A DNA stretch of 64,000 nt, from NCBI GenBank assembly GCA_024742415.1, contig JANSYN010000011.1, forward strand, positions 62,001 through 126,000. Direction: 5' to 3'. Below are positions 3,338 through 37,665 of this stretch, piece after piece. Source of the stretch: Gammaproteobacteria bacterium. GTDB taxonomy: Bacteria > Pseudomonadota > Gammaproteobacteria > Pseudomonadales > Halieaceae. The notes below the pieces were generated by a model. That model searched no databases. It saw only the letters and a program-made list of their open reading frames with translations, and was not told the origin of the DNA. Positions within the stretch are counted from its first letter, which is position 1, and each line of letters begins with the position of its first letter. The position numbers were made by a program, and so were the translations under genes.

Positions 3338-5677
3338 ATGAACCATTCCCTGAAGCACCCCCAGACTATCGGCAAGACCGCCATCGCTCGCAAGACCGCA
3401 TTGGCGGCAGCGCTTGGCATTTTCGCAGCCCCGACAATGGCGCAAATGGTGCTTGAAGAAGTGATCGTCACCGCGCAAAAACGTGCCGAGAGCGTGCAGG
3501 ATGTCAACGCCACGGTGAACGTCGTCAGCGGTGAGAATATCGAGCGCTTCAATACCTTTGATTTCAGCGAGATCGAGTCGCAAACTGCCGGCCTGACGCT
3601 ATCAAGCCCCAACGCTCGCAATAACACCATATCACTGCGCGGCGTTAGCGTTGACCCGGAGGCAGGCAATGCTGCAGCGGTTGATGTCTACTGGAACGAT
3701 GCCATTGTGCGGGCAGATGTCGCCTTCACCCAACTGTACGACCTGGCCAGGATCGAAATCCTGCGCGGGCCACAGGGTACATTGCAGGGGCGCACCTCGC
3801 CGGCGGGTGCGATCAACATTATCACCCAGGGTGCGAGCCTGGACGAGCCCAGTGGTTACGTCAGCGTCTCGGCCAGCGACAACGCGGGCATTAACACCCA
3901 GGCTGCGTACGGCGCGCCACTGATCGAAGACACGCTGGCTGTGCGCGTCGCTGCAGTGTACGACACCAATGCAGGGCCCGACGTCGAGAACATCACCACT
4001 GGCCTTGACGATCAGGAGCTGGAGGCGAAATCCGCGCGTTTCAGCGCGCTGTGGGACATCATGGAGTCACTCAGCGCGCAACTTATCTATCAGTACCTGG
4101 ATCAATCCAAGGACGACCCCAAGGGCCTGACCGGGGTAGACGCACTCAACCAGCGACCAAGCCTGCAGCCATCTGACAGAACGGCGCTGGCGCCCAGTAA
4201 CGATACCGCTGATCTCGAATTTGATGTTGCCAACCTGATTGTAGACTGGGAGTTCATGGAGCACAGTGTCACCGGCATCATCGGCTACCAGGATTCGTTG
4301 AAAGAGGCGAAAACAGAAAACGACCGCGCCAATTCCATGGCCCTGCTGGAAACACCCATCCCTACCCCCACCTTCCAGACGTCCGCAACAGATACCGAGA
4401 GCATCTCCTACGAGTTGCGTATCGCATCGCCGGACAACGATTTCTGGGACTACATGATTGGGCTCTACTACCAGGACCAGAACACCAGCACCGAATTCGC
4501 GGCAAACTCGGTACGGCTCGAAAACCAGCTGGGTTTTCGTACCGTAGGGAACCTGCCCGTCAACCGTAACAACTACGCGATCTTCACCTTCAACAGCTTC
4601 ACGCTGACAGATGACCTGGAACTCGAATTCGGTTTGCGCTGGACCAACTACGACAGCTTCGTCCGCGCCGATGTTTTCTTTGACCAGCTCAACTACCTGC
4701 CGCCAAGCCTTGAGCCTATTGCCGATGTTGTAGAAGCCGGCTTCGCCGCGAACTTTCCTATTATCGCTGTAGATAATGCGGACTCACAGGAAGATGCTGT
4801 TACCGGCTCCCTGACACTGCGCTGGGACTGGACCGACGAGATCGCGACTTACGTGTCCTACAACCGCGGTTATCGACCCGGCGGCATCTCGATCATCCCG
4901 TCGCCAAACGTCGAATTCCTGCCCAATGGCCAGGACGACATCATGTATTCTGAAGAAGAAAGTGACGCCTTCGAGATAGGCTTCAAGAGCCGTCTGCTGG
5001 ACGGCCAGGCCACCCTGAACGGCGCGCTGTACTATCAGTCGTTTGACGGCTACCAGGGCTTCGTGCGCGGGGTTCAGGTGCTCAGCGATGACGGCGCTGC
5101 TGAAGATCTTCCCGGGGGCATTGTGTACAACGGCGACGCCAACATCTGGGGTGTTGAGCTGGAAGGCCAGATACTGCTGACGGAAACCTGGAGCGCCGGC
5201 AGCGCACTGTCCTATACCAAAGGCGAGTGGGACGGGGCCACACAACCCTGTAATGACCGCGCGCCAGGTGAAGTGATTGGAGAGTGTGATATCGATGGCC
5301 AGGCGCTGGGCGGAGAGCCGGAATGGTCCTTCTCAGTCAACTCCGAATACTACATCCCACTGGATTCGACCGAGGTGTATTTCCGCGGTCTGTTCAAGTA
5401 CACCGACGACCGACTCAACATCGACGCATCCGCTGGCCTGGGTATCGTGGCAGCGGATTTCGAGGCGTATCAAACGCTGGATCTGTTCGCCGGCTGGCGC
5501 AGCGCTGACTACACCTGGGACGTTTCTGTCTGGGGCAAGAACGTGTTCGATGAAGACGAGGTGATTTTCCAGCAGGGGCCTGATTCCCTGGACGTTGCCA
5601 TCAGCGATGGTTCCTATACACAGACCAACGTCCTGCGCGAACGCACGATCGGCATAACCGGCCGCTACAACTTCTAG
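3338..5677 (+). CDS. TonB-dependent outer-membrane receptor
   Basis: A 779-residue outer-membrane active transporter. A cleavable signal peptide (cut near APTMA|QM, residue 35) is followed by a TonB box-like segment LEEVIVTAQKR. Next come the plug domain with RIEILRGPQGTLQGR and AGAINIITQ, and a long beta-barrel ending in the terminal aromatic of GRYNF. GGAG lies 8 nt before the ATG. The family imports siderophores, haem, cobalamin, oligosaccharides or other large ligands with energy from TonB-ExbBD; the LRGPQGT-type plug does not identify the ligand. The gene is monocistronic: it starts behind a divergent symporter operon and ends at a bidirectional terminator. The downstream 17-bp repeats are unusual. 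Confidence 0.9.
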   Translation: MNHSLKHPQTIGKTAIARKTALAAALGIFAAPTMAQMVLEEVIVTAQKRAESVQDVNATVNVVSGENIERFNTFDFSEIESQTAGLTLSSPNARNNTISLRGVSVDPEAGNAAAVDVYWNDAIVRADVAFTQLYDLARIEILRGPQGTLQGRTSPAGAINIITQGASLDEPSGYVSVSASDNAGINTQAAYGAPLIEDTLAVRVAAVYDTNAGPDVENITTGLDDQELEAKSARFSALWDIMESLSAQLIYQYLDQSKDDPKGLTGVDALNQRPSLQPSDRTALAPSNDTADLEFDVANLIVDWEFMEHSVTGIIGYQDSLKEAKTENDRANSMALLETPIPTPTFQTSATDTESISYELRIASPDNDFWDYMIGLYYQDQNTSTEFAANSVRLENQLGFRTVGNLPVNRNNYAIFTFNSFTLTDDLELEFGLRWTNYDSFVRADVFFDQLNYLPPSLEPIADVVEAGFAANFPIIAVDNADSQEDAVTGSLTLRWDWTDEIATYVSYNRGYRPGGISIIPSPNVEFLPNGQDDIMYSEEESDAFEIGFKSRLLDGQATLNGALYYQSFDGYQGFVRGVQVLSDDGAAEDLPGGIVYNGDANIWGVELEGQILLTETWSAGSALSYTKGEWDGATQPCNDRAPGEVIGECDIDGQALGGEPEWSFSVNSEYYIPLDSTEVYFRGLFKYTDDRLNIDASAGLGIVAADFEAYQTLDLFAGWRSADYTWDVSVWGKNVFDEDEVIFQQGPDSLDVAISDGSYTQTNVLRERTIGITGRYNF

Positions 5678-27025: not shown

Positions 27026-27889
27026 TCAGAGCACAGAAAATTCCGCAGTAGCGCTCATACTCAAATCCCCCCGGGCATCCTCTGCCCACAACTGCATGAT
27101 CTGCTCCGGACCCTTGTTGGCACACAGCCGCACGGGTGCTCCGTCCGTCAAGGGCTGCACGGCGCGAAACTCAAAAGACTTCAGTGGCGCCTCAACACCC
27201 TCACGCCGTAACAAATCCAGCAATAACGTGGCCGTCAACGGGCCCTGAACCACCAGGCCAGCATAGCCTTCCTGCTCTACTGCATAGCTGCGGTCGTAAT
27301 GGATGCGATGACTGTTCAGGGTTAGCGCCGAGTATCGGAACAACAGCACCGGGTCAGGATAAACCAACCGCGACAACGTGGCTGGCCCACTTTCCGTGTG
27401 TCCGGTCGCGTGCGACGCAGCGGCCTGCTTGACGGGCGCTGCGCGAAACACGAGGTCCTGCTCTTCCTCAAGCAGGCAATCGTGATCGCGCATCACCGCA
27501 TGATGCAGCGTGACAAAAACCAGCTCACCACTGCGACCCACCTTGTGTTCTATCGAGACAATAGTGGATATCCGTCGCAGGATATCGCCGACATACACAG
27601 GCGCGTGGAAACGCAGGCGACTGCCCGCCCACATGCGCCTTGGCGGCTCAATTGGCGGCAGAAAGTCACCGCGCTGTGGGTGCCCGTCAACAGCAATAGA
27701 TGACGCCCGGGCAGGCTCAAGAAAATACAGCCAGTGCCAGCAGGCAGGCAGCGCAGACCCGACCGTTGCCAATGCGCGCGGGTAATCAAGGGCTGCCGAG
27801 AGGCCATTCACCGGTGCCTGGGTGACGCAGTCGTGCACCGTGTGTTGGCGCCCGACCCACGCGGCAAAAGGCGCTGGCGTGGAACTCAT
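27026..27889 (-). CDS. Htd2/MaoC-type acyl-CoA hydratase (FAS1-like dehydratase fold)
   Basis: A 287-residue double-hot-dog enzyme. The N-terminal half resembles the FAS1-like/MaoC_dehydrat_N domain (RMWAGSRLRFHAPVYVGDILRR, residues 85-106) and the C-terminal half holds the hydratase site FRYSALTLNSHRIHYDRSYA (185-203). H197 is the expected catalytic His and N192 stands where classical (R)-hydratases have Asp, as in the Htd2 branch. Related proteins act on mesaconyl/3-methylfumaryl-CoA or itaconyl-CoA, adding or removing water. It is the last gene of the SDR-dehydrogenase-transferase operon, about 100 nt after the transferase. The substrate is inferred only from this context. Confidence 0.82.
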   Translation of the reverse strand: MSSTPAPFAAWVGRQHTVHDCVTQAPVNGLSAALDYPRALATVGSALPACWHWLYFLEPARASSIAVDGHPQRGDFLPPIEPPRRMWAGSRLRFHAPVYVGDILRRISTIVSIEHKVGRSGELVFVTLHHAVMRDHDCLLEEEQDLVFRAAPVKQAAASHATGHTESGPATLSRLVYPDPVLLFRYSALTLNSHRIHYDRSYAVEQEGYAGLVVQGPLTATLLLDLLRREGVEAPLKSFEFRAVQPLTDGAPVRLCANKGPEQIMQLWAEDARGDLSMSATAEFSVL

Positions 27890-27988
27890 AAAGACGCGCT
27901 ACCCGGCGGCGAGGAGCGCATCGTGCACGCGCATCGGCGATCCGGCAGCGGCACCCCGGACACTCTCAGGAACCGGCAACCGCCCCGG

Positions 27989-29161
27989 CTAGTCAGCGTC
28001 ACGGGGGGGCATCTCCTGATCTGGGTCGGCGCCCGGTTCAACGCCAAACTCGGCGCGCAGCACCGCGTCGTGCTCTCCCACGGCCGGCACCGCACCCCAG
28101 CTACGCGGGCCTAGCGTGCTTTGCGCAGGGGCAGCCACTAGTTCTACCAACCCTGACGGGGTCGTGACGTCCTGGCGGCGCAACTGGGCATGGCGCTGCA
28201 GGTCAGCAACGCTGTTGACCGCCCCAAAACCAATCTGCGCAGCGCCCAGCCGCGCCGTCAGCTCATCGCGAGAGCAAGCCAGGAACACCGCGGCAATGCA
28301 TCGGTCCAGCGCCACACGGTTTTCACAACGCCGCACATTGCTGTCGAAGCGTTCGTCGTTGGCAAGCCCAGGCTGCTGCAGCACGCCTTGGCAAAACGAG
28401 TGCCACTCGCGTTCATTCTGTACCGAGATCACCAACTGCTCCCCCGAAGCGCAGCGGTAGGCGCCGTAAGGGGCGATGGAGGGATGATTCAGGCCCACGC
28501 GCTGCGGCGCCCTGGCAGCATACTGTTGATGCAGTAGTGGCACTGTCATCCATTCGGCCAGCGCATCAAACAGGGAGACCGCAATACCCTGCCCTGCGCC
28601 GCTGCGCTGTCTTTCCAGCAGTGCCTCCAGCACGGCGGCATGGGCATACATGCCACAGGCGATATCGCAGATCGACACACCTACCCTGCCGGGTGCTTCG
28701 GGTGCGCCGGTGATCGAAGCGAGCCCTGTTTCACACTGCACCAGCAGGTCGTAGGCTTTCATTGTGCGATAGGGGCCCTGCTCGCCATAGCCGGAAATAT
28801 CCACCGTGATAAGGCGCGGAAAACGCGCGCGTAAATCCGCACTGCGAAAGCCGGCACGGGCGGCGGCGCCAGGGGCAAGGTTCTGGATAAAAACGTCGGC
28901 ATGCGCGAGGATGCGCTGCAGCAACTCAGCATCGCGCGCATCCTTGATATTCAGGCACAGCGATTCCTTGCCACGATTCAGCCATACGAAATAGGCGCTC
29001 TCGCCGTTGGCGACATGGTCGTAGTGGCGCGCAAAGTCGCCCTCGCTGCGTTCGACCTTGATGACGCGCGCGCCTGCGTCGGCAAGACGTGAACTACAGT
29101 AAGGTGCCGCCACAGCCTGCTCCAGGGCCACCACAACAAGGCCTTCCAACGGCAAGCTCAT
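27989..29161 (-). CDS. Class III (CaiB/BaiF) CoA-transferase
   Basis: A 390-residue family III CoA-transferase that moves CoA between acyl groups, forming an aspartyl-CoA anhydride intermediate. The N-terminal PLEGLVVVALEQAVAAPYCSSRLADAGARVIKVE is the Rossmann-like signature and D138 in KAYDLLVQ is the expected catalytic Asp; ALFDALAEW-type and NHPSIAPYGAY motifs follow. The true start is ATG at 29161, overlapping the dehydrogenase stop by one base (TGATG), so the two are translationally coupled. The C-terminal tail is acidic and Pro-rich. Together with the hydratase and dehydrogenase this suggests activation and oxidation of a carboxylic acid. Confidence 0.88.
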   Translation of the reverse strand: MSLPLEGLVVVALEQAVAAPYCSSRLADAGARVIKVERSEGDFARHYDHVANGESAYFVWLNRGKESLCLNIKDARDAELLQRILAHADVFIQNLAPGAAARAGFRSADLRARFPRLITVDISGYGEQGPYRTMKAYDLLVQCETGLASITGAPEAPGRVGVSICDIACGMYAHAAVLEALLERQRSGAGQGIAVSLFDALAEWMTVPLLHQQYAARAPQRVGLNHPSIAPYGAYRCASGEQLVISVQNEREWHSFCQGVLQQPGLANDERFDSNVRRCENRVALDRCIAAVFLACSRDELTARLGAAQIGFGAVNSVADLQRHAQLRRQDVTTPSGLVELVAAPAQSTLGPRSWGAVPAVGEHDAVLRAEFGVEPGADPDQEMPPRDAD

Positions 29162-30348
29162 CAAAACGACCTTGGCATATCGAGTTCACGCGTTGCGATA
29201 TGCGACAGAATGAGATTCGTAGAGATTGGAGCGACCTGGTACAACCGCGTCTCCCTGAACTTGCGCTCTACGTCGTACTCCACCGCAAACCCGTAACCGC
29301 CAAAGGTTTGAATGCAAGTATCGCCCGCCTGCCAGGAGGCCTCCGAGGCCAGCAGTTTGGCCATATTGGCCTCGGACCCAGCAGGCTTGCCCGCGTCGTA
29401 CAGCGCGGCAGCTTCGCGCACCATCAGCGCCGCCGCCTGCGTTGCAATATGCGCCCTGGCAATCGGGAACTGAATCCCCTGGTTCTCGCCTATCGGCCGG
29501 TCAAACACACGACGCTCACTGGCGTAGCTCGACGCCTTTTCTACAAACCAGCGCGCATCGCCAATGCACTCTGCGGCGATAAGAATACGCTCGGCATTCA
29601 TGCCGTCCATGATGCAGCGAAACCCCTGGCCTTCTGCGCCGATCAGGCTGCTTGCGGGAATGCGCAGGTCATCGAAACAGAGTTCGGTGGATGCGTGATT
29701 CATCATGGTATCGATGGGCTTTATGGTCAGGCCATTGCCAAGCGCCTGGCGCATATCGATCAGAAAAACCGACATTCCATCGGTGTGGCGCTTACCGGAT
29801 TCACGCGTGGACGTACGCGCCAGCAGTACCATGAGGTCTGAGTGCTCGGTGCGCGAAATAAACACCTTGCGGCCGTTCACAACGTAGCTGTCGCCATCGC
29901 GGCGCGCCGTTGTGCGGATACGCGAGGTATCGGTGCCGCTGTCAGGCTCAGTGACAGCAAAGGCCTGCAGGCGCAGGTCACCGCGGGCGATCTGCGGCAG
30001 ATATTCGGCAATTTGCGCGTCACTGCCATGCCGCAATAACGTTCCCATCGTATACATCTGGGCATGGCATGCCGCGCCATTGCCACCGCTGCGATGGATT
30101 TCTTCGAGTATGGCGCAGGCAGCGCCCAGTGGCAGGCCACTCCCGCCGAACTCTTCGGGAATAAGCACCGCCAGAAAACCCGCATCGGAAAGGGCCTGGA
30201 CAAACGCCGTGGGGTAGGATTTGTCGCGATCACAATCACGCCAATAGCTGCCGCCAAACTCGGCACACAGGGCGGCAACCGCTGCTCGAATATCGGTAAA
30301 TTCGTGCTCAGGAGGCATCGCGCTGCCCCGCTGCACAGGCACTGCCAT
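29161..30348 (-). CDS. Acyl-CoA dehydrogenase with relocated catalytic glutamate
   Basis: FAD-dependent alpha,beta-dehydrogenase of 395 residues. Domain order is helical N-terminal (1-125), beta barrel (126-235) containing FAVTEPDSGTDTSRI, and helical C-terminal. The usual C-terminal base in the YEGT motif is absent: the aligned text is LYQVAPIS, putting P374 there. Instead E253 in GMNAERILIAA lies where isovaleryl-CoA and long-chain dehydrogenases carry their helix-G glutamate. So the enzyme is likely active, with the base in the other location. FAD-binding TFGGYGFAVEYDVER is intact. Middle gene of the operon; a weak internal Met start at residue 11 is an alternative. Confidence 0.88.
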   Translation of the reverse strand: MAVPVQRGSAMPPEHEFTDIRAAVAALCAEFGGSYWRDCDRDKSYPTAFVQALSDAGFLAVLIPEEFGGSGLPLGAACAILEEIHRSGGNGAACHAQMYTMGTLLRHGSDAQIAEYLPQIARGDLRLQAFAVTEPDSGTDTSRIRTTARRDGDSYVVNGRKVFISRTEHSDLMVLLARTSTRESGKRHTDGMSVFLIDMRQALGNGLTIKPIDTMMNHASTELCFDDLRIPASSLIGAEGQGFRCIMDGMNAERILIAAECIGDARWFVEKASSYASERRVFDRPIGENQGIQFPIARAHIATQAAALMVREAAALYDAGKPAGSEANMAKLLASEASWQAGDTCIQTFGGYGFAVEYDVERKFRETRLYQVAPISTNLILSHIATRELDMPRSF

Positions 30349-30387
30349 GCGTGGCGAAAAGACCCTGTGAATGCTCTGGTGACCGCA

Positions 30388-31149
30388 TCACAGGAACCAG
30401 GAACCGCCGTCCACCATGTGCGTCTGGCCGGTGACCAGGGCACTATGGTCCGAGGCCAGGTACACCACGGTACCAGTCACATCCGAGGGCTCAAGATTGC
30501 GCTTGATCAATTGTCCGGAGGCAATAACGCCCTTGGCTTTTTCAAACTTCTCGCCGAAAAACTCCTCGGTGCCTTCGGTCATTACGGCTGAGGGCGCCAC
30601 CGCATTGACGCGGATGTTGTCACTGCCCAACTCGCGCGCCATGCCGCGCGTCATGCCGATCACGGCCGCTTTAGAGGCGACATAATCCAGCCCGTAGGGC
30701 AGCCCGAATACCGCCGCCAGTGAAGAAACATTGATGATAGATCCACCGCCGGCCTCGCGCATTGCCTGCACCACTGCCCTGCTGGCCAACCAGGTGCCCT
30801 TGACGTTGACATTCATGGCCGCGTCCCACTGTTTTTCGTCAAGGTGTTCAAAACGCGCGCCCTTGAGACCTGCATACAGTGCTGCATTGTTCACCAGAAT
30901 ATCGATCCTGCCGAAAGCTTCCAGCGCCGCGGCGGCCATAGCCACGCAACTGTCGGCATCGGCCACGTCTACCGTCGTGGCCACCGCCCTGCCCCCCTGC
31001 GCGGTAATCGCGGCAACGGTATCAGCGCCATCGTTGAGGTCTGCAACCAGTATCGCTGCGCCTTCCGCGGCGAGCGCCTCGGCATACGCGCGGCCGAGGC
31101 CACGTGCCGCGCCGGTGACGATGGCGACTTTATCCTGCAGTTGGGCCAT
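30388..31149 (-). CDS. Short-chain dehydrogenase/reductase (SDR)
   Basis: A 253-residue classical SDR using NAD(P). The cofactor-binding TGAARGLGRAYAEALA, the NNAALYAG loop, the SSLAAVFG serine and the YVASKAA active-site Tyr/Lys are all present, and the C-terminal PSAVMTEGTEEFF and DGGSWFL fit the family. I chose the ATG at 31149, two codons inside the longest frame, because AAGGA stands 7 nt upstream of it. First gene of the acyl-CoA operon, so it most likely oxidises or reduces a 3-hydroxyacyl or related intermediate there. Confidence 0.9.
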   Translation of the reverse strand: MAQLQDKVAIVTGAARGLGRAYAEALAAEGAAILVADLNDGADTVAAITAQGGRAVATTVDVADADSCVAMAAAALEAFGRIDILVNNAALYAGLKGARFEHLDEKQWDAAMNVNVKGTWLASRAVVQAMREAGGGSIINVSSLAAVFGLPYGLDYVASKAAVIGMTRGMARELGSDNIRVNAVAPSAVMTEGTEEFFGEKFEKAKGVIASGQLIKRNLEPSDVTGTVVYLASDHSALVTGQTHMVDGGSWFL

Positions 31150-31465
31150 GAGCATTTCCTTGCAAATTGAGCGCAGGCAACAGTAGCAAAATTTCGCTTC
31201 GGGTTTTAGTGCCTTGCGAGCCGGTCAAGCAGCCGTTGTGCGCACACCACCTCCCAGGCGCTTACCGGGAAACTTCCGCTGTGCACAGCCTGTCGCCCAT
31301 GCGGCACCCTGGTGCGGTCAAGGTCTTGCGCTGGCGCAGCGCAGGCCATCGGTACAGTGCGAGCCGATCTCTGCGCTGCGGGCAGGCGGCAGCGACGGCG
31401 GGCAGTAGCGACAGCCCCACCCAGGAATGGCGCAGTGCTGCCGCGCCCCCGTGTTTTTGTGCGGC
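31150..31465. other. GC-rich intergenic region
   Basis: A 316-nt gap upstream of the SDR operon and downstream of the beta-helix gene. It should hold the SDR promoter, but no strong -10/-35 pair was recognised. Several overlapping open frames here are consistent with high GC rather than with genes. Confidence 0.4.
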
Positions 31466-32953
31466 CTAGTTCTTCACCTGCAGCACATACCTGGCCACGG
31501 CGAGCCGGGTTTCTTCATCCAGGTAGTTCTGTGGCGGCATCTCGGGGTAGTCGTCGCGCTTCTTGGTGGGATTGGCAATGTACTCAGCCAGACCCTGCGG
31601 ATTATCCATATACAGTGCCTGAATGATCTGTATCGGTGGACCAATCATCCGGCCGGTATACGTGTGGCAGCCAGCGCAAACGCCAAGGTAGGCGATCTTG
31701 CCACGATCCTCACCCTTGATAACACGCGGTGGAACCGGAGGCAGCAGGTAGTTGGCAATCTGCTTGGTATTGGTAAATTCGCAATCGCTGAAAGGCTTCA
31801 GCCCAACGGTCACATAGCGCTCACGGTTCAGGATACAGCTGTCCTTGGAAGGGCCGACGCGGACAATATCGGGATTGCCACGCTTCAGCTCCAGGAACAT
31901 CAGCTTTTTGACGTCGTCGAGGGTGTCGTAGCCGTTGTTCGACATCAGGTTGTCGAGAATCTTAACGCGATCGGCGTTCGGATCTGATTCGGGATCAATC
32001 GTCACGTTCGCCGCATGGCCATGGTCCGTGATGAGAATACCGGCGGTTTTGTTGTCACGGATAATATTGCCCTCGATCACCACGTCGTCGGCGGCCATAA
32101 CGAGAATTCCGGTGCCTGCCGGAATACCCGCTACCGTCGAGCCAGGTGCTGCAAAATTGGGGTGATTATTGGAGATGACAAAGTTGTTGCGGATGATCAC
32201 ATCGTAGGTCGTCTTGATCGGCAGCCCGGGCGTAATGAACGCCAGGATTCCGCCGGTGTTGTTATAGACACGATTGGCTTCAACAATAGCGTGACGGCTG
32301 TTTTCGATCTCGATGCCCGCTACGCTGTCGAACACGTCGTTATAGGCAACGTGGATGTTGTCACTCATGCCCACATAGATCGCCGCGTCTTCTATGCCGG
32401 AAATCACATTGTGCTCCACCACGCCGTTCTGGCCCAATTGCGGAAAGATGCCGTAGACACCGGTATCGATAATCACGTTGTTGCGGATTTCCCAATTGTT
32501 ACCGGCCTGGCTCATGATGCCATTGCCCTTGTAGCGTGTGATCTTGAAATTCTCGACCACGACGTTATTGCCCGAGTACAGAATGGCGTCATTCAGCTTG
32601 CCCTCACCATCCAGTGTGGGTCGCTTGCCATCCTCGATAACGCCAATCAATCGTATGCCGTTCTTATCGATGTACACGGTTTCGTGATACGTGCCCGGCA
32701 TCACCTTGATCGTGGTACCAGGCTCGGCCTTTTTGACGGCGTCCTGAATAGACTGACCCGATTTGACCGTGACCACCACGTCAGACATCGGCGGGCCCGC
32801 AACGAAGCGGTCGGCGCCGTCGAGCGTCAGCACATTGCCCTGGGCACTGAAACCGCCCGTATAGCTGATATCAGCGGTGGCCGACTGCATGCCAAGCAGG
32901 CTGCAGGCTGCAACCAGTGCCGCTATAAAAAAGGGGGATCTGAAACGGGTCAT
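31466..32953 (-). CDS. Parallel beta-helix protein fused to C-terminal cytochrome c
   Basis: A 495-residue exported protein. The leader (residues 1-29) could be cut by signal peptidase I at SATA|D, or as a lipoprotein at VAAC (C17). Residues about 60-340 form a right-handed parallel beta-helix of NosD/pectate-lyase-like repeats; N-rich turns such as ENSRHAIVEANRVYNNTGG recur every 22-24 residues. A cytochrome c domain follows: CAGCH at 426-430 binds haem, and M472 in YPEMPPQNYL is the likely sixth ligand. Beta-helix proteins of this kind occur beside c-type cytochromes in other bacteria. Its start overlaps the upstream gene stop (ATGA), so it is the last gene of the redox operon. Confidence 0.85.
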   Translation of the reverse strand: MTRFRSPFFIAALVAACSLLGMQSATADISYTGGFSAQGNVLTLDGADRFVAGPPMSDVVVTVKSGQSIQDAVKKAEPGTTIKVMPGTYHETVYIDKNGIRLIGVIEDGKRPTLDGEGKLNDAILYSGNNVVVENFKITRYKGNGIMSQAGNNWEIRNNVIIDTGVYGIFPQLGQNGVVEHNVISGIEDAAIYVGMSDNIHVAYNDVFDSVAGIEIENSRHAIVEANRVYNNTGGILAFITPGLPIKTTYDVIIRNNFVISNNHPNFAAPGSTVAGIPAGTGILVMAADDVVIEGNIIRDNKTAGILITDHGHAANVTIDPESDPNADRVKILDNLMSNNGYDTLDDVKKLMFLELKRGNPDIVRVGPSKDSCILNRERYVTVGLKPFSDCEFTNTKQIANYLLPPVPPRVIKGEDRGKIAYLGVCAGCHTYTGRMIGPPIQIIQALYMDNPQGLAEYIANPTKKRDDYPEMPPQNYLDEETRLAVARYVLQVKN

Positions 32954-34416
32954 GAGGAATCTCCTGTTGCCGATGCTGTCGTTGCGATCGATGCCGGCGT
33001 GGGGCCTGATCTTGTGAGTGGTGGTGCTGTTGTTCTTGCTGTTTTTGCTGTTACTGTTACTGACGCTGATGCCGTCTTTGTCTTGATACCTGTCTCTACA
33101 TCTGTCTTCGTCGTCAACATGCCTGACCTGGCGTTTGGTCCGGCTATCGCCCCTGCTTGAGACGCCTGCGGCGCTTGCTGCGCCTTGCCTATCGATTGCC
33201 CGGCCGCCGCCTGTGTTGCAGGGCCCGCTAGTGGGCTCAGGCCGGAGGGCAGCGCATCGGGAACCTGCGGCTTGAGACTTTCATCGGTGAGCGTACCGAG
33301 AAAATCAACCAGCCTGTCCAACTCATAATCGGTCAGCTCCGGTGAGCTGATATGCCAGTGCAGGAACAGGTCCTCACCTGCGGGCACGGCATGGCCACGG
33401 CCGCCGTTGTAAAAAGCGGCAGTGTCGCGCAGGTTACCAAACAACCCGGAGTGCATGTAGGGTGCAGTCAGCTCAATATTGCGCAATGTGGGGACTTTGA
33501 ACCCACCACGCAGCTTCGGGGCATTGAAGGTCTTCTCGGCACCGGGGTCAAAGGGCAGGCCAGGCGGCTCAGGGGCACCGATGACCGCAATCTGCTGATT
33601 GGTAAACAGGGGCGGCGTGTGGCATTCCGCGCAGCGTGCTACGAACGATCGGAAAATATTCAGCCCCTCAATCTCCGGCGCTGACAGCGCAGCGTGATGC
33701 CCATGCGCATAGCGGTCATAGCGGCTATTGAGCGAGATAAGCGATGTCTGGAAAGCGGCAAGCGCTGTGTAGACATCTTCCAGACGGATGCCCTGGGTGC
33801 TGGACTCGGGAAACGCCTGCCTGAACAGTGCGCGATAAGCCGCGTTATCATTCAGGCGCTGCGCCAGTTGCACCGGTGTGTTGCCCATTTCTACCGGCGA
33901 AAAGAGCGGGCCCATCGCCTGCTGTTCCAAACTTTGCGCATGAGCGTCCCAGAAAAAACTGTTGAGAAATGCCACATTCCACAGGGTCGGCGCTGCCCTT
34001 GCTACCTGGGCACCACCGATCCCAACCGAGCGTGGCAGTCCGTCGCTGAAGCCGCGGTCGGGATCGTGACAACTCGCGCAGGAAACCGAGCCATCGCGCG
34101 ACAGCAGCGGGTCAAAAAACAGGTAGCGCCCCAGGTCTATCTGTTGTGGTGTAAAACCATCGCGATGATCGGGCAGCGAGGTCATCGTGCCACCCAGGCC
34201 CTTGTCCTGCACCGAGGTATACATTTCATAGCGTGTACGCAGCTTGCACAGCCCTGAATCGAGCTTTTCAAAGCTGGGCGGGCAGTGCGTACGCAACACA
34301 AAGCGGGGGGGTTCAGCAGCGCCAACGACAGCGATATCAGCGGCGGTGGCGGCAACGCCAATGATCGACAGGCCGACCAGCAAAGCGCGATACAAAAACA
34401 ACCGGTAATTGACCAT
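32950..34416 (-). CDS. MauG/CcpA-like dihaem cytochrome c peroxidase with Ser/Thr/Ala-rich tail
   Basis: A 488-residue periplasmic dihaem enzyme of the bacterial cytochrome c peroxidase/MauG superfamily. Haem sites are CASCH (113-117) and CAECH (262-266), followed by the conserved LRNIELTAPYMHSG (311-324). A hydrophobic N terminus to about residue 26 targets it for export. Members reduce peroxide with electrons from small cytochromes, or oxidatively modify partner proteins (MauG, MbnH). A peculiar tail of about 100 residues (386-488) is Ala/Ser/Thr/Pro-rich and looks disordered. ATG at 34416 overlaps the cytochrome c4 stop (TGATG). Its C terminus overlaps the beta-helix gene by 4 nt. Confidence 0.88.
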   Translation of the reverse strand: MVNYRLFLYRALLVGLSIIGVAATAADIAVVGAAEPPRFVLRTHCPPSFEKLDSGLCKLRTRYEMYTSVQDKGLGGTMTSLPDHRDGFTPQQIDLGRYLFFDPLLSRDGSVSCASCHDPDRGFSDGLPRSVGIGGAQVARAAPTLWNVAFLNSFFWDAHAQSLEQQAMGPLFSPVEMGNTPVQLAQRLNDNAAYRALFRQAFPESSTQGIRLEDVYTALAAFQTSLISLNSRYDRYAHGHHAALSAPEIEGLNIFRSFVARCAECHTPPLFTNQQIAVIGAPEPPGLPFDPGAEKTFNAPKLRGGFKVPTLRNIELTAPYMHSGLFGNLRDTAAFYNGGRGHAVPAGEDLFLHWHISSPELTDYELDRLVDFLGTLTDESLKPQVPDALPSGLSPLAGPATQAAAGQSIGKAQQAPQASQAGAIAGPNARSGMLTTKTDVETGIKTKTASASVTVTAKTARTTAPPLTRSGPTPASIATTASATGDSS

Positions 34417-35048
34417 CACTGCTGTGGCACGCTGCCCTTGCGGTGGATGAAGGCAATGACGTCTAACAGCGTTTTCTCGTCCGGCAGTGCGGAAGACATC
34501 ATCTTCATCTGGCGGCCATAACGATCATCGGGGTGACTACCGCGAATACCTTTCTGGAAATTGGCCATCTGGCGCAGCAAATAGGACTGGTCCAGGGCAC
34601 TCAGGGCCGGTGCGTTGAGAGCGGGATTACCCTGCGCCTGTGCCCCGTGACAGGCGCCACAGGACGCGTGGTAATAATTGCTGCCATTGCGCAGATCTGC
34701 GTCTGCCGCCGCAGTGACGGTTGGTGCCGGCATCGCCGACAAGTACTTCGCCATAGCCGGAATGTTGTCATCGCTGAGTGTCTGCGCCATGGCGGCCATC
34801 TGCATACCGTGCACATCTGCGCTATCAGCGCCGCGCACGCCTTGCTTGAAGTGCCACAGTTGGCGCTCGAGATAGGCGGCATCCTGGCCAGCCAACGCCG
34901 GGGCAGCGGTGACAGGATTGCCCTGCGCCTCGGAACCGTGGCAGTAGGCGCACGGCTTGAACAGCGACGCCATGCTGTCCTGTGCATGCCCCACACAGGA
35001 CAGTGTCAGTGCGATAAAGAAACACACCATGCCAGGAAAAGGCCTCAT
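34416..35048 (-). CDS. Dihaem cytochrome c4-type protein
   Basis: A 210-residue periplasmic electron carrier made of two homologous c-type domains. The haem motifs are CAYCH (33-37) and CGACH (130-134). After each, the pattern GNPxxxAPALxxxDxxYLxRQ recurs, as in cytochrome c4 proteins. The probable Met ligands lie in MQMAAMAQTLSD and GRQMKMMSSALPD. Signal peptide about residues 1-22, GGAG 8 nt before the ATG. First gene of the three-gene operon, so it is the natural electron donor for the dihaem peroxidase encoded next. Confidence 0.92.
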   Translation of the reverse strand: MRPFPGMVCFFIALTLSCVGHAQDSMASLFKPCAYCHGSEAQGNPVTAAPALAGQDAAYLERQLWHFKQGVRGADSADVHGMQMAAMAQTLSDDNIPAMAKYLSAMPAPTVTAAADADLRNGSNYYHASCGACHGAQAQGNPALNAPALSALDQSYLLRQMANFQKGIRGSHPDDRYGRQMKMMSSALPDEKTLLDVIAFIHRKGSVPQQ

Positions 35049-35135
35049 TCTGCAGACTCCTTGCTCACGGGTAACGCGGGCACCACGGCGCGCGCAAATA
35101 CTGTATTAAACCACACAAAGCTAATGGTCACTATC

Positions 35136-35164
35136 TTACAAATGCCTGTAACGCGGGCTATTAT
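35136..35164 (+). promoter_or_regulatory. Probable sigma-70 promoter of TonB receptor
   Basis: TTACAA (35136-35141), 17 nt, TATTAT (35159-35164): four of six and five of six consensus matches with ideal spacing. The start would be near 35171, giving a leader of about 45 nt. Confidence 0.5.
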
Positions 35165-35171
35165 ACTGGCT

Positions 35172-35190
35172 GATAACAATTCTAAATATC
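35172..35190 (+). promoter_or_regulatory. Weak Fur-like box overlapping predicted transcription start
   Basis: GATAACAATTCTAAATATC shares 13 of 19 positions with the canonical Fur box, including both outer GATA/TATC ends. Its place at the predicted start site is right for a repressor, but the match is moderate. Confidence 0.35.
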
Positions 35191-35214
35191 GTCTCGATCC
35201 AAGGACTACCCACA

Positions 35215-37665
35215 ATGAAAGCTACCCCGTATCGCAAAAACCCGGCTGGCGCTGCCCTTCAGTGGGGCGCAACCGCCCTTTGCAGCATTATCAGCCTTGG
35301 TGGCACACAGGTCACTGCCCAGGAATCCACGTCGAACCAGAATCGCTACAGCGTGGCGCTGGAGGAAGTCCTGGTAACCGCGCAAAAACGTGAAGAGAGC
35401 CACATGTCAGTGCCCATCGCTGTGAACACCTTCACCTCGCAGGATATTATCAATACCGGTGCACTGAACATCGAGAATATCGATGATTTCATGCCCGGCG
35501 TTGAATTCGGCAGTACCACTTCAAACCAATCCACGCAGTTGAGTGTATCTATACGCGGCGTAGACAGCCCCAATATAAGCAGTGGTGGCGACCCATCGGT
35601 CGCGACCTTTTACGACGGCTCCTACATGCCGCGCGCAGTGACAACGATTCCATTTACTGATATAGAGCGTATTGAAGTCCTCAAGGGCCCGCAGGGTACG
35701 CTGTTCGGTCGCAATGCGACGGCCGGTGTGGTCAATATTATTCCGGTCAGACCCGAAGACGAATTCAACGGCTTCGTGCGCGCGCGCCTGGGCAACTACG
35801 ACCTGGCGGACTTCGAGGGTATGGTGAACGTGCCCATCAACGACGCGTTCGCCGTGCGCGCCAATCTGTTCCATCACCAGCGAGGCGCCATTTTTAACAA
35901 TATCGGTATCGGCGATGACCTGCGTGAAGAGAACTTCACGGCCGCGCGGCTCGTATTGCAGTACCAGCCTAACGTGGATACACGCATTCAACTGGCGGCG
36001 GACATGGAAGACCGCGACGAAAACACCAACTACTCCATTGGCGTGAGCAAGTATGCGGTCAGCACGGATCCGTTCAACAGTGACGTCGCCAACGATGTGA
36101 TCGACCGCGACGAAAAGCGCGACATGTACGGGATTTCATTGCAAGGCGATCATACTATCAACGAGCAACTGTCGGTCTTTGGTATTGTCAGTTATCGGGA
36201 TTGGGAGACATTCAACAAACAGGACGAGGACGGCACCGCCGAGCCGCGTCGCTACCTTGATACCAACAACATCGAGGATTCAGACATCTGGTACAGCGAG
36301 ATCCGTTTCAATTTCACTGGCCACAAACTCGATGTCATCGTTGGTGGTAACTACTCGCAGGAAGAAGTGTACCAGCGTACCGATATCGGCCTGCTGGCAG
36401 ACTCGTACATGCAGTTTGTCAGCCTCGACCTGCTGCCCGAGGTGGGCTTTCCGTCAGATCCCGACGTGCATGCCTGGGACCCGGATGTGCTGGGCAATGA
36501 AGACGATGACTTCTACCTTGCCGGGTCCGCCCTGGCTGGCGGGTTTTTCGATCCGCCCCTGCCGGGCATCGCCGTATTACCTCCGAGCTTCGCCGGCACC
36601 TATTTCACTGAAACAATGGATAACACCGGCGAGTTCATTAACTGGGGCATCTTCGCCGACGCCACCTACCAGTTGACCGATACCGTCCGCCTGATCGGGG
36701 GCTTGCGCTACAGCTATGACGATAAAGAGTATTCCTGGCAAACCTTTGAGCAAGACCTCGACTGGCCATTCGCACCGGCCCGCGTCGCTTATGATCCGGC
36801 GCAGGCTGGCGCCTCACCGCAGGAATTCTTCAACAAGTTCGAGGACGACGAAAGCTGGAATCAGGTAACCGGCCGTGCCGTTGCCGAGTGGGATTTCATG
36901 GACTCGGCAATGACCTATTTTTCCTACGCCACGGGCTATAAATCCGGCGGTTACGACGGGCAATCGTTCAGCGCCGTTCTGGCAGGACCCTTTGATAATG
37001 AAGAGATCACCAGCTACGAATGGGGCCTCAAAGGCGACTTCTTTGACGACACGGTGCGTATCGAATTCGCCGCGTTCTATCACGAGCTGGATAATCGCCA
37101 GAACACCGAAAGCGTCAAGGACGGACCTGATGACCCCACAGCGCAACCGCGCGTAGTCAGTGCCGACGAAGAAACCAACGGCTGGGAGATTATCGCCCAC
37201 TGGCAAGTGCTGGACACCCTGCGTGTCTCCGGCCTGACCACACGGCGTGAGAGCGAGCGCGTACAACAACCGTTCTTCGATGCCCAGGGCGAGCCGGCCG
37301 GCGGCGTGAAGGAAAATCTCAAGGCGGATCTGGATTACACCCTGCGCCTGGACTGGACGCCAGGCATCCCGGTGGGCTTGCTGCTGGTACACGTCGACTA
37401 CATTTTCAACGAAGCCGAAGATGATAGTGACGCAGTTATTTTTACCACGGGCGAGTGGTATTTCCAGGATAGGGAGCTGCTGAATGCGCGCATCGCATGG
37501 ACCAATAACGAGCAGAACTTTGAGGTCGCACTCTGGGGCCGCAACCTGCTCGATAAGGAATACGCTGACAACCCCGGCGGCTTTGTGGCCGATACGCTTG
37601 GCGCTTACAAAACCAACGTCGAAGACCCGCTTACTTTTGGCGTAGACCTGCGTTACGCGTTCTAG
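35215..37665 (+). CDS. TonB-dependent outer-membrane receptor
   Basis: An 816-residue receptor. The signal peptide is long (cut near TQVTA|QE, residue 35). The TonB box-like LEEVLVTAQKREE, plug with RIEVLKGPQGTLFGRNATAG and terminal DLRYAF follow. The barrel is rich in Asp and Tyr with many long strands. AAGGA lies about 10 nt upstream. It is divergent from the cytochrome operon with 166 nt between, so the two may be co-controlled; a moderate Fur-like box in the gap suggests iron regulation. The ligand is unknown; iron complexes are possible on that basis only. Confidence 0.9.
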   Translation: MKATPYRKNPAGAALQWGATALCSIISLGGTQVTAQESTSNQNRYSVALEEVLVTAQKREESHMSVPIAVNTFTSQDIINTGALNIENIDDFMPGVEFGSTTSNQSTQLSVSIRGVDSPNISSGGDPSVATFYDGSYMPRAVTTIPFTDIERIEVLKGPQGTLFGRNATAGVVNIIPVRPEDEFNGFVRARLGNYDLADFEGMVNVPINDAFAVRANLFHHQRGAIFNNIGIGDDLREENFTAARLVLQYQPNVDTRIQLAADMEDRDENTNYSIGVSKYAVSTDPFNSDVANDVIDRDEKRDMYGISLQGDHTINEQLSVFGIVSYRDWETFNKQDEDGTAEPRRYLDTNNIEDSDIWYSEIRFNFTGHKLDVIVGGNYSQEEVYQRTDIGLLADSYMQFVSLDLLPEVGFPSDPDVHAWDPDVLGNEDDDFYLAGSALAGGFFDPPLPGIAVLPPSFAGTYFTETMDNTGEFINWGIFADATYQLTDTVRLIGGLRYSYDDKEYSWQTFEQDLDWPFAPARVAYDPAQAGASPQEFFNKFEDDESWNQVTGRAVAEWDFMDSAMTYFSYATGYKSGGYDGQSFSAVLAGPFDNEEITSYEWGLKGDFFDDTVRIEFAAFYHELDNRQNTESVKDGPDDPTAQPRVVSADEETNGWEIIAHWQVLDTLRVSGLTTRRESERVQQPFFDAQGEPAGGVKENLKADLDYTLRLDWTPGIPVGLLLVHVDYIFNEAEDDSDAVIFTTGEWYFQDRELLNARIAWTNNEQNFEVALWGRNLLDKEYADNPGGFVADTLGAYKTNVEDPLTFGVDLRYAF

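Follow-up and report, generated by a model that had tools for sequence, protein, structure and literature searches.

MauG-type enzymes with known partner proteins are few, and those described have shown unusual chemistry. In the closest of these systems, MbnH/MbnP with MbnT, SACCP/MopE and CorB/CorA, a MauG-like di-haem enzyme is encoded beside a single partner, often near a TonB-dependent transporter, and an action of SACCP on MopE, like that of MauG on methylamine dehydrogenase, has been proposed (PMC3621798). The genes considered here lie in a 64,000-nucleotide stretch of DNA from a gammaproteobacterium of the Halieaceae (contig JANSYN010000011.1, positions 62,001 to 126,000; the window) and encode a di-haem cytochrome c4-like protein, a di-haem enzyme of MauG/MbnH type and a beta-helix protein fused to a cytochrome (together, the triad), with a divergent gene for a TonB-dependent receptor. 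From the conservation of these genes across homologous loci, we tentatively propose that the set is one receptor-fed periplasmic oxidation unit, a redox system acting on a small organic ligand.

Reading of the open reading frames of the window confirmed three minus-strand genes and the divergent receptor gene, and the gene identities and overlaps (34416-34418 and 32950-32953) claimed in a first-pass annotation of this DNA were borne out by these frames together with Pfam and NCBIfam. The c4-like gene (34416-35048) encodes 210 amino acids with a signal-peptide-like start, two CxxCH motifs and two cytochrome c domains (PF00034 in two stretches), and its product reaches the cut-off of no NCBIfam model. 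It is followed by the enzyme gene (32950-34416; 488 amino acids; PF03150, 180.7 bits) and the beta-helix/cytochrome gene (31466-32953; 495 amino acids with a C-terminal mono-haem cytochrome; PF13229/PF05048 and TIGR03805), while the receptor gene (35215-37665, plus strand) encodes a plug (PF07715, 67.2 bits) and a barrel (PF00593, 95.6 bits), both above cut-off. The TGA stop codon of the c4-like gene (34418-34416) has one base in common with an enzyme gene that starts at the ATG of 34416; a start at the GTG of 34419 would lengthen this overlap. At the next junction, a four-base overlap (ATGA, 32950-32953) holds both the stop codon of the enzyme gene and the ATG of the beta-helix gene and suggests translational coupling of these two genes.

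Compared with MbnH/MbnP, which is the nearest precedent of the set and is often found beside a TonB transporter, the partner here is a beta-helix protein fused to a cytochrome rather than MbnP, a c4 gene is part of the operon, a regulator is added, and no tryptophan of the partner is conserved. The MbnP model TIGR04052 gave no match in the source genome, and none of 14 controls gave a match either. We know of no beta-helix partner for the rubber oxygenase RoxA. Compared by description only, RoxA is likewise a di-haem oxidising enzyme of Gram-negative bacteria, its product being an oxo-aldehyde, but it differs in being secreted (PMC6797691, accessible portion). A survey covering mainly open-access papers found neither a beta-helix partner for a MauG-type enzyme nor this gene combination; the accessible text of PMC6405878 makes no mention of beta-helix, TonB or neighborhood, and the accessible parts of PMC8756737 and PMC3403914 have no bearing on this gene set.

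The di-haem enzyme and its beta-helix partner

Homologous loci were taken from two sets, set A comprising 80 named loci (the best 80 of 360 encoding a relative) and set B comprising 34 loci of a second genome set; six set A beta-helix genes are identical to set B ones, and of the 116 beta-helix homologues 110 are distinct. Among loci with enough upstream sequence (five of 80 in set A and one of 34 in set B were set aside for the enzyme, and eight of 80 and two of 34 for c4), the enzyme and beta-helix genes are co-directional, with the enzyme gene first, in 75/75 and 33/33 cases, and c4 lies upstream of the enzyme in 71/72 and 25/32 cases, respectively. A search for a c4 substitute at the eight loci lacking c4 turned up no frame with CxxCH in the 2.5 kb upstream of the enzyme gene.

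Of 244 genomes scanned from the order to which the window belongs, 79 have a match to the beta-helix protein at 1e-20; in 35 the match is a close, nearly full-length one (E < 1e-120), and in the rest it is distant and covers mostly the beta-helix part. Close relatives of the enzyme (E up to 1e-75) occur in 34 of the 244 genomes, all of them among the 35 with a close beta-helix gene; both genes are thus present in 34 genomes, the beta-helix gene alone in one, the enzyme alone in none, and neither in 209 (Fisher p 8e-41, with genomes that are related and hence not independent). The sole beta-helix-only genome is G045, where the gene extends up to a contig end. The 35 genomes span 13 family labels of the one order, and the enzyme-partner pair also occurs in Colwellia-, Alteromonadaceae- and Steroidobacter-type bacteria. 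In a sample of the phylum, the beta-helix gene is present in seven of 398 genomes, one of which (G544) lies outside the class and carries the enzyme and beta-helix genes with no match to c4, receptor or regulator within 19 kb. This genome and the locus counts together indicate that the pair is the core of the set and c4 its usual third member. Judged from gene order and co-occurrence, the pairing of the enzyme with the beta-helix cytochrome is near-obligate, and the gene arrangement is far beyond chance.

The enzyme scores 219.3 bits against the NCBIfam model for MbnH (TIGR04039, cut-off 362.85) and 194.3 bits against that for MauG (TIGR03791, cut-off 443.85), below the cut-off in both cases. 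When solved chains are ranked by whole-sequence E-value, bacterial cytochrome c peroxidases come first, ahead of 6e1c (MbnH, according to the structure title and a reference in PMC12607021) and MauG; for the C-terminal part of the enzyme, MauG ranks first. Foldseek matches of the enzyme model, from which the fold alone was taken because the model is weak (predicted local distance difference test, pLDDT, 66.5), comprise bacterial peroxidases, as the best matches, 6e1c and MauG.

Both haem motifs of the enzyme, which like all the triad features given below lie on the minus strand, are conserved as CxxCH, the first (CASCH, residues 113-117; 34066-34080) in 113/113 readable homologues, three of the 116 not being readable, and the second (CAECH, residues 262-266; 33619-33633) in 114/114, with two of 116 not readable. 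Tyr336 (33409-33411) aligns with Tyr294, the axial ligand of MauG, and is Tyr in 114/114 readable homologues (two of 116 not readable), the Met or His of classical peroxidases being absent. In the alignments, this column holds Tyr in the MauG chains, where it counts as Tyr294, and in the MbnH structure 6e1c, and Met in the peroxidase 1zzh; the tyrosine is described as conserved in all MauGs, with Met or His in its place in peroxidases, in the accessible part of PMC7567364. Trp156, which aligns with the WD motif of the peroxidases, and HWH at residues 353-355 are invariant in readable homologues. With MauG, which acts on pre-methylamine dehydrogenase in Paracoccus, the enzyme has in common the di-haem fold, the axial-column tyrosine and the WD-motif position of Trp156; it differs in its family score, in its partner and in having no Trp at what we take, by our own count, to be the MauG Trp199 position. 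By its predicted axial ligand the enzyme is MauG/MbnH-like, in line with the MauG-like di-haem enzyme of the first-pass annotation, while belonging to neither curated family, and protein modification by it is possible. A low-complexity C-terminal tail (about residues 396-488; 32953-33231), with pLDDT < 50 for residues 400-488, falls mostly in gap columns of the enzyme alignment of the window and 49 set A loci (judged on 25 of the 50 rows); as the tail is mostly without counterpart in the homologue rows, the conserved enzyme comprises about 395 residues.

The partner lies above the TIGR03805 cut-off (182.5 versus 141.5 bits), and its AlphaFold2 model has a pLDDT of 82 and a predicted template modelling score of 0.80, with pLDDT < 50 around the haem motif. 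A right-handed beta-helix domain (residues 60-394; 31772-32776) is followed by a fused cytochrome c domain (residues about 415-495; 31469-31711), which exceeds the PF00034 cut-off by 0.6 bit (21.9 versus 21.3 bits) and matches the solved cytochromes c555, c552 and c551 in a family profile search. The haem motif of this domain (31664-31678) is CxGCH, and the likely distal ligand Met472 (31538-31540) is Met, in all 116 homologues; by motif the haem on the beta-helix protein is real, as the first annotation had held.

Six residues of the beta-helix protein (D189, Y167, Y193, E215, E217 and N218) are invariant in 116/116 homologues, and most of them are also seen by eye in TIGR03805 relatives that pair with another di-haem cytochrome. 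In both beta-helix alignments (55 and 23 sequences), Tyr89, 141, 167, 193 and 432 as well as Cys373 and Cys391 are invariant, and neither alignment contains a conserved Trp; residue 154 is F in 91, W in 15 and Y in 10 of the 116 homologues. Nor did inspection of the alignments by eye reveal a conserved His/Cys cluster beyond the haem ligands and one Cys pair. A ladder of Tyr141, Tyr167 and Tyr193 on one face of the beta-helix was considered and dropped, the strand spacing in the model being about 22-23 residues. In fold comparisons, alginate epimerases match the protein better than NosD does, and many sugar enzymes match it about equally. We know of no parallel beta-helix protein that is a redox enzyme.

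As in the TIGR03805/TIGR03806 pair, the beta-helix protein is a TIGR03805 member joined to c-type haems, but its haem partners here are a MauG-type enzyme, c4 and a fused mono-haem domain rather than a di-haem protein of the SO2930 family. That pair is also present in the source genome as a single fused gene: a different contig (C12; L066:8113-10539) encodes a second beta-helix protein, of 808 residues, in which TIGR03805 (373 bits) and TIGR03806 (389 bits) are joined. In genome G044 (L071) the two are adjacent genes, with a BtuB-like TonB receptor (L071:6814-8745; TIGR01779, 424 bits, under cut-off) shortly upstream, a case in which the TIGR03805 beta-helix family may accompany receptors elsewhere too.

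The TonB-dependent receptor and neighbouring genes

The source genome contains 44 barrel-family matches in a receptor search, five of them in the window (genes at about 3338, 8924, 16276, 19365 and 35215). A relative of the window receptor at 1e-60 or better is present in 18 of 30 triad-bearing genomes searched, and among these 18 it lies beside the triad in 14 and is the best match of the genome in 12. For the locus counts, L084, L096 and L143 lacked a beta-helix frame from the gene caller, leaving 77 loci and the window (n = 78); a receptor of the cluster occurs in the fetched stretch at 48 of these 78 loci, within 600 bp of the set in 41 of them, and the 41 near receptors are divergent (16), co-directional upstream (19) or co-directional downstream (6). 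That the receptor has been rearranged yet retained argues for a functional link to the set.

In a tree of 60 triad-locus receptors, 59 fall in one clade that includes the window receptor (local support 1.0), the sixtieth (L142) lying outside, and the clade is entered by none of 30 other receptors from the source genome. The 60 receptors exceed 600 residues and derive from BLAST clusters, so that quite different receptor types may be missed and some genomes appear twice; the outgroup is made up of 30 of the genome's 44 receptors, with the window gene at 3338-5677 counted twice and 13 others left out. The reading of the receptor as a chance neighbour was rejected on the locus counts and the single-clade tree, and on these sequence comparisons the receptor is specific to the set but not obligatory. 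The idea that the genes form one system therefore survived, since they are regularly adjacent and the receptor is conserved beside them; the association with the receptor stood as a conserved one (48/78 loci; 59/60 in the clade) but not as an obligatory one, as the loci and receptors listed in the next section illustrate.

Clade receptors that stand away from any triad at L153, L154, L156 and, in part, L155 have a common neighbourhood and are 56-58% identical to the window receptor over the BLAST alignment. At L154:8148-15063, this neighbourhood contains genes for a thiolase of the lipid-transfer type (PRK06059, over cut-off) and for a flavin adenine dinucleotide (FAD)-binding protein, and the clusters of both are found in L153 and L156 and not in L155. 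In G106, of the same family as the window, such a thiolase and a FAD-binding protein neighbour the free-standing receptor and point weakly to a hydrophobic organic ligand. A family search gave no family for three of the MaoC-, DUF35- and cytochrome-like proteins near the free-standing receptors.

A regulator gene, not seen at the window locus, is present in 39 of 81 loci (set A and the window) and directly precedes c4 in 37 of the 39. Its product has a long front part that is hydrophobic by eye and probably represents a membrane part, and an AraC-type DNA-binding end (one member scanned). In the divergent promoter region of the window, the best conserved stretch in an alignment with five near relatives (three named Halioglobus) is 35105-35134, which could be a regulator site or a shared promoter.

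Downstream of the set in the window lie minus-strand genes identified by Pfam as encoding short-chain dehydrogenase/reductase (SDR), acyl-coenzyme A (CoA) dehydrogenase, CoA-transferase III and MaoC/FAS1-dehydratase-like proteins (27026-31155). The SDR cluster recurs downstream in six of the nearest set A loci (L072, L073, L079-L082) and the other downstream window genes in fewer. Aldehyde dehydrogenases of one sub-branch adjoin the set in Steroidobacteraceae (L090, L097, L099, L119) and also in L098, L132 and L136; they are 37-41% identical across two locus groups, and their best NCBIfam model is benzaldehyde dehydrogenase, under cut-off, in three of seven scanned. Three loci, L085 (10250-10672; the copy scanned), L086 and L094, have a gene for a small cytochrome c downstream of the set. 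Just downstream of the set on the opposite strand, L072 (9465-10685), L073 (9516-10454) and L081 (1722-2735) encode an uncharacterised protein that has no Pfam match (L072 copy) and is outer-membrane-barrel-like by eye.

Candidate functions of the set

In the receptor-fed oxidation unit proposed above, the TonB receptor would import a small organic ligand into the periplasm, where the beta-helix may hold it in a polar groove, presumably lined by the conserved residues, much as alginate epimerases of like fold hold their substrates. Peroxide or oxygen would charge the presumably tyrosine-ligated di-haem enzyme, which would then withdraw electrons from the bound ligand, either directly or via the haem fused to the beta-helix; c4 would carry electrons between the unit and the respiratory chain, and the cell could go on to use what the oxidation yields, perhaps an aldehyde or an acid. 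In favour of this reading count the constant pairing of the enzyme with its partner, the single receptor clade, the tyrosine at position 336, the six invariant residues assigned to the groove (D189, Y167, Y193, E215, E217 and N218) and, for the fate of the product, the neighbouring genes, those near the free-standing receptor of G106 included. The adjacent aldehyde dehydrogenases and the acyl-CoA genes of the window are in keeping with an organic substrate that is finally channelled into central metabolism, and it is because such neighbours are lineage-specific that we hold the proposal only tentatively.

Several observations weigh against an oxidation unit of this kind. Catabolic neighbours vary by lineage, and most loci have no recurrent one in common. 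No receptor occurs in the fetched stretch at 30 of the 78 loci (13 of those stretches are shorter than 12 kb), and nine receptors of the same clade are found away from any triad (two in G158 and one each in G106, G180, G241, G003, G047, G015 and G113), the last four of these genomes having no close triad beta-helix gene. The G544 pair has neither c4 nor receptor in its 19 kb, and eight loci are without c4. Furthermore, the tyrosine and a bis-Fe(IV) state are both found in BthA, an enzyme that nevertheless turns peroxide into water (PMC6405878). The putative binding of a ligand in the groove is argued from likeness of fold. The oxidation role is a tentative proposal.

The main rival is maturation, in which the enzyme would oxidise a residue of the beta-helix protein to form a cofactor or metal site, and the mature protein, as a dehydrogenase or binder, would hand electrons on to the haem that it carries and to c4. 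This is a possible though somewhat doubtful explanation, and it draws on the near-constant association of the enzyme with one partner protein, a trait that MbnH and SACCP show with MbnP and MopE (PMC3621798), on the MauG-type tyrosine of the enzyme and on the invariant tyrosines and the Cys373 and Cys391 of the partner. Against these stands the fact that no Trp is conserved in the partner, so that the known Trp chemistries do not apply there; a Trp-to-kynurenine or tryptophan tryptophylquinone-like change of the beta-helix protein was rejected on this ground, leaving Trp oxidation of the MbnP kind unsupported, and any maturation would probably involve another residue. By count from the haem motif, the presumed MauG Trp199 site corresponds to Ala260 in the enzyme and is not Trp. 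In two loci scanned, moreover, related TIGR03805 proteins stand beside, or form one chain with, a di-haem cytochrome of another kind; the fold as such consequently does not need a MauG-type enzyme. It is also conceivable, if improbable, that the MauG-type enzyme builds a Tyr- or Cys-derived cofactor in the groove and so makes its partner a novel quinoprotein-like dehydrogenase; the electrons of a substrate brought in by the linked TonB receptor would then pass to the fused haem and on to c4.

Peroxide defence and copper handling explain less than either the oxidation unit or maturation. A BthA-type peroxidase drawing electrons from c4 and the fused cytochrome, with the beta-helix as a docking scaffold, would agree with the top rank of peroxidases both among solved chains by whole-sequence E-value and in the fold search, with the union of the tyrosine and peroxidase activity in BthA (accessible text of PMC6405878) and with a c4-like cytochrome that could be the donor. 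Such a role appears unlikely, as it leaves the near-obligate beta-helix partner, its conserved residues and the receptor clade unexplained, and the column of Tyr336 holds Met in 1zzh and Met or His in peroxidases generally (PMC7567364, accessible part). Still less probable is metal acquisition or delivery, with the beta-helix protein as a NosD-like copper chaperone and the receptor importing a metallophore. The NosD-like copper delivery put forward at first found no support, the protein scoring 61.7 bits against the NosD model TIGR04247 (cut-off 300), far under it, and fitting alginate epimerases better. The one NosZ model tried (TIGR04246) gave no match in the genome, while six controls gave matches, none over cut-off, and no nos-type ATP-binding cassette gene was found among the 18 neighbour clusters scanned. 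The recurrent regulator is AraC-type in the member scanned, and the conserved His and Cys residues seen by eye are the haem ligands and the one Cys pair. Taken as a whole, the initial interpretation of the locus is partly supported.

The set offers a testable pair of a MauG-type enzyme and its partner that is widely conserved, and it gives the TIGR03805 beta-helix family a redox context and a clade of TonB receptors a candidate role. The analysis suggests an undescribed route for the periplasmic uptake and oxidation of a compound, present in many marine and soil bacteria.

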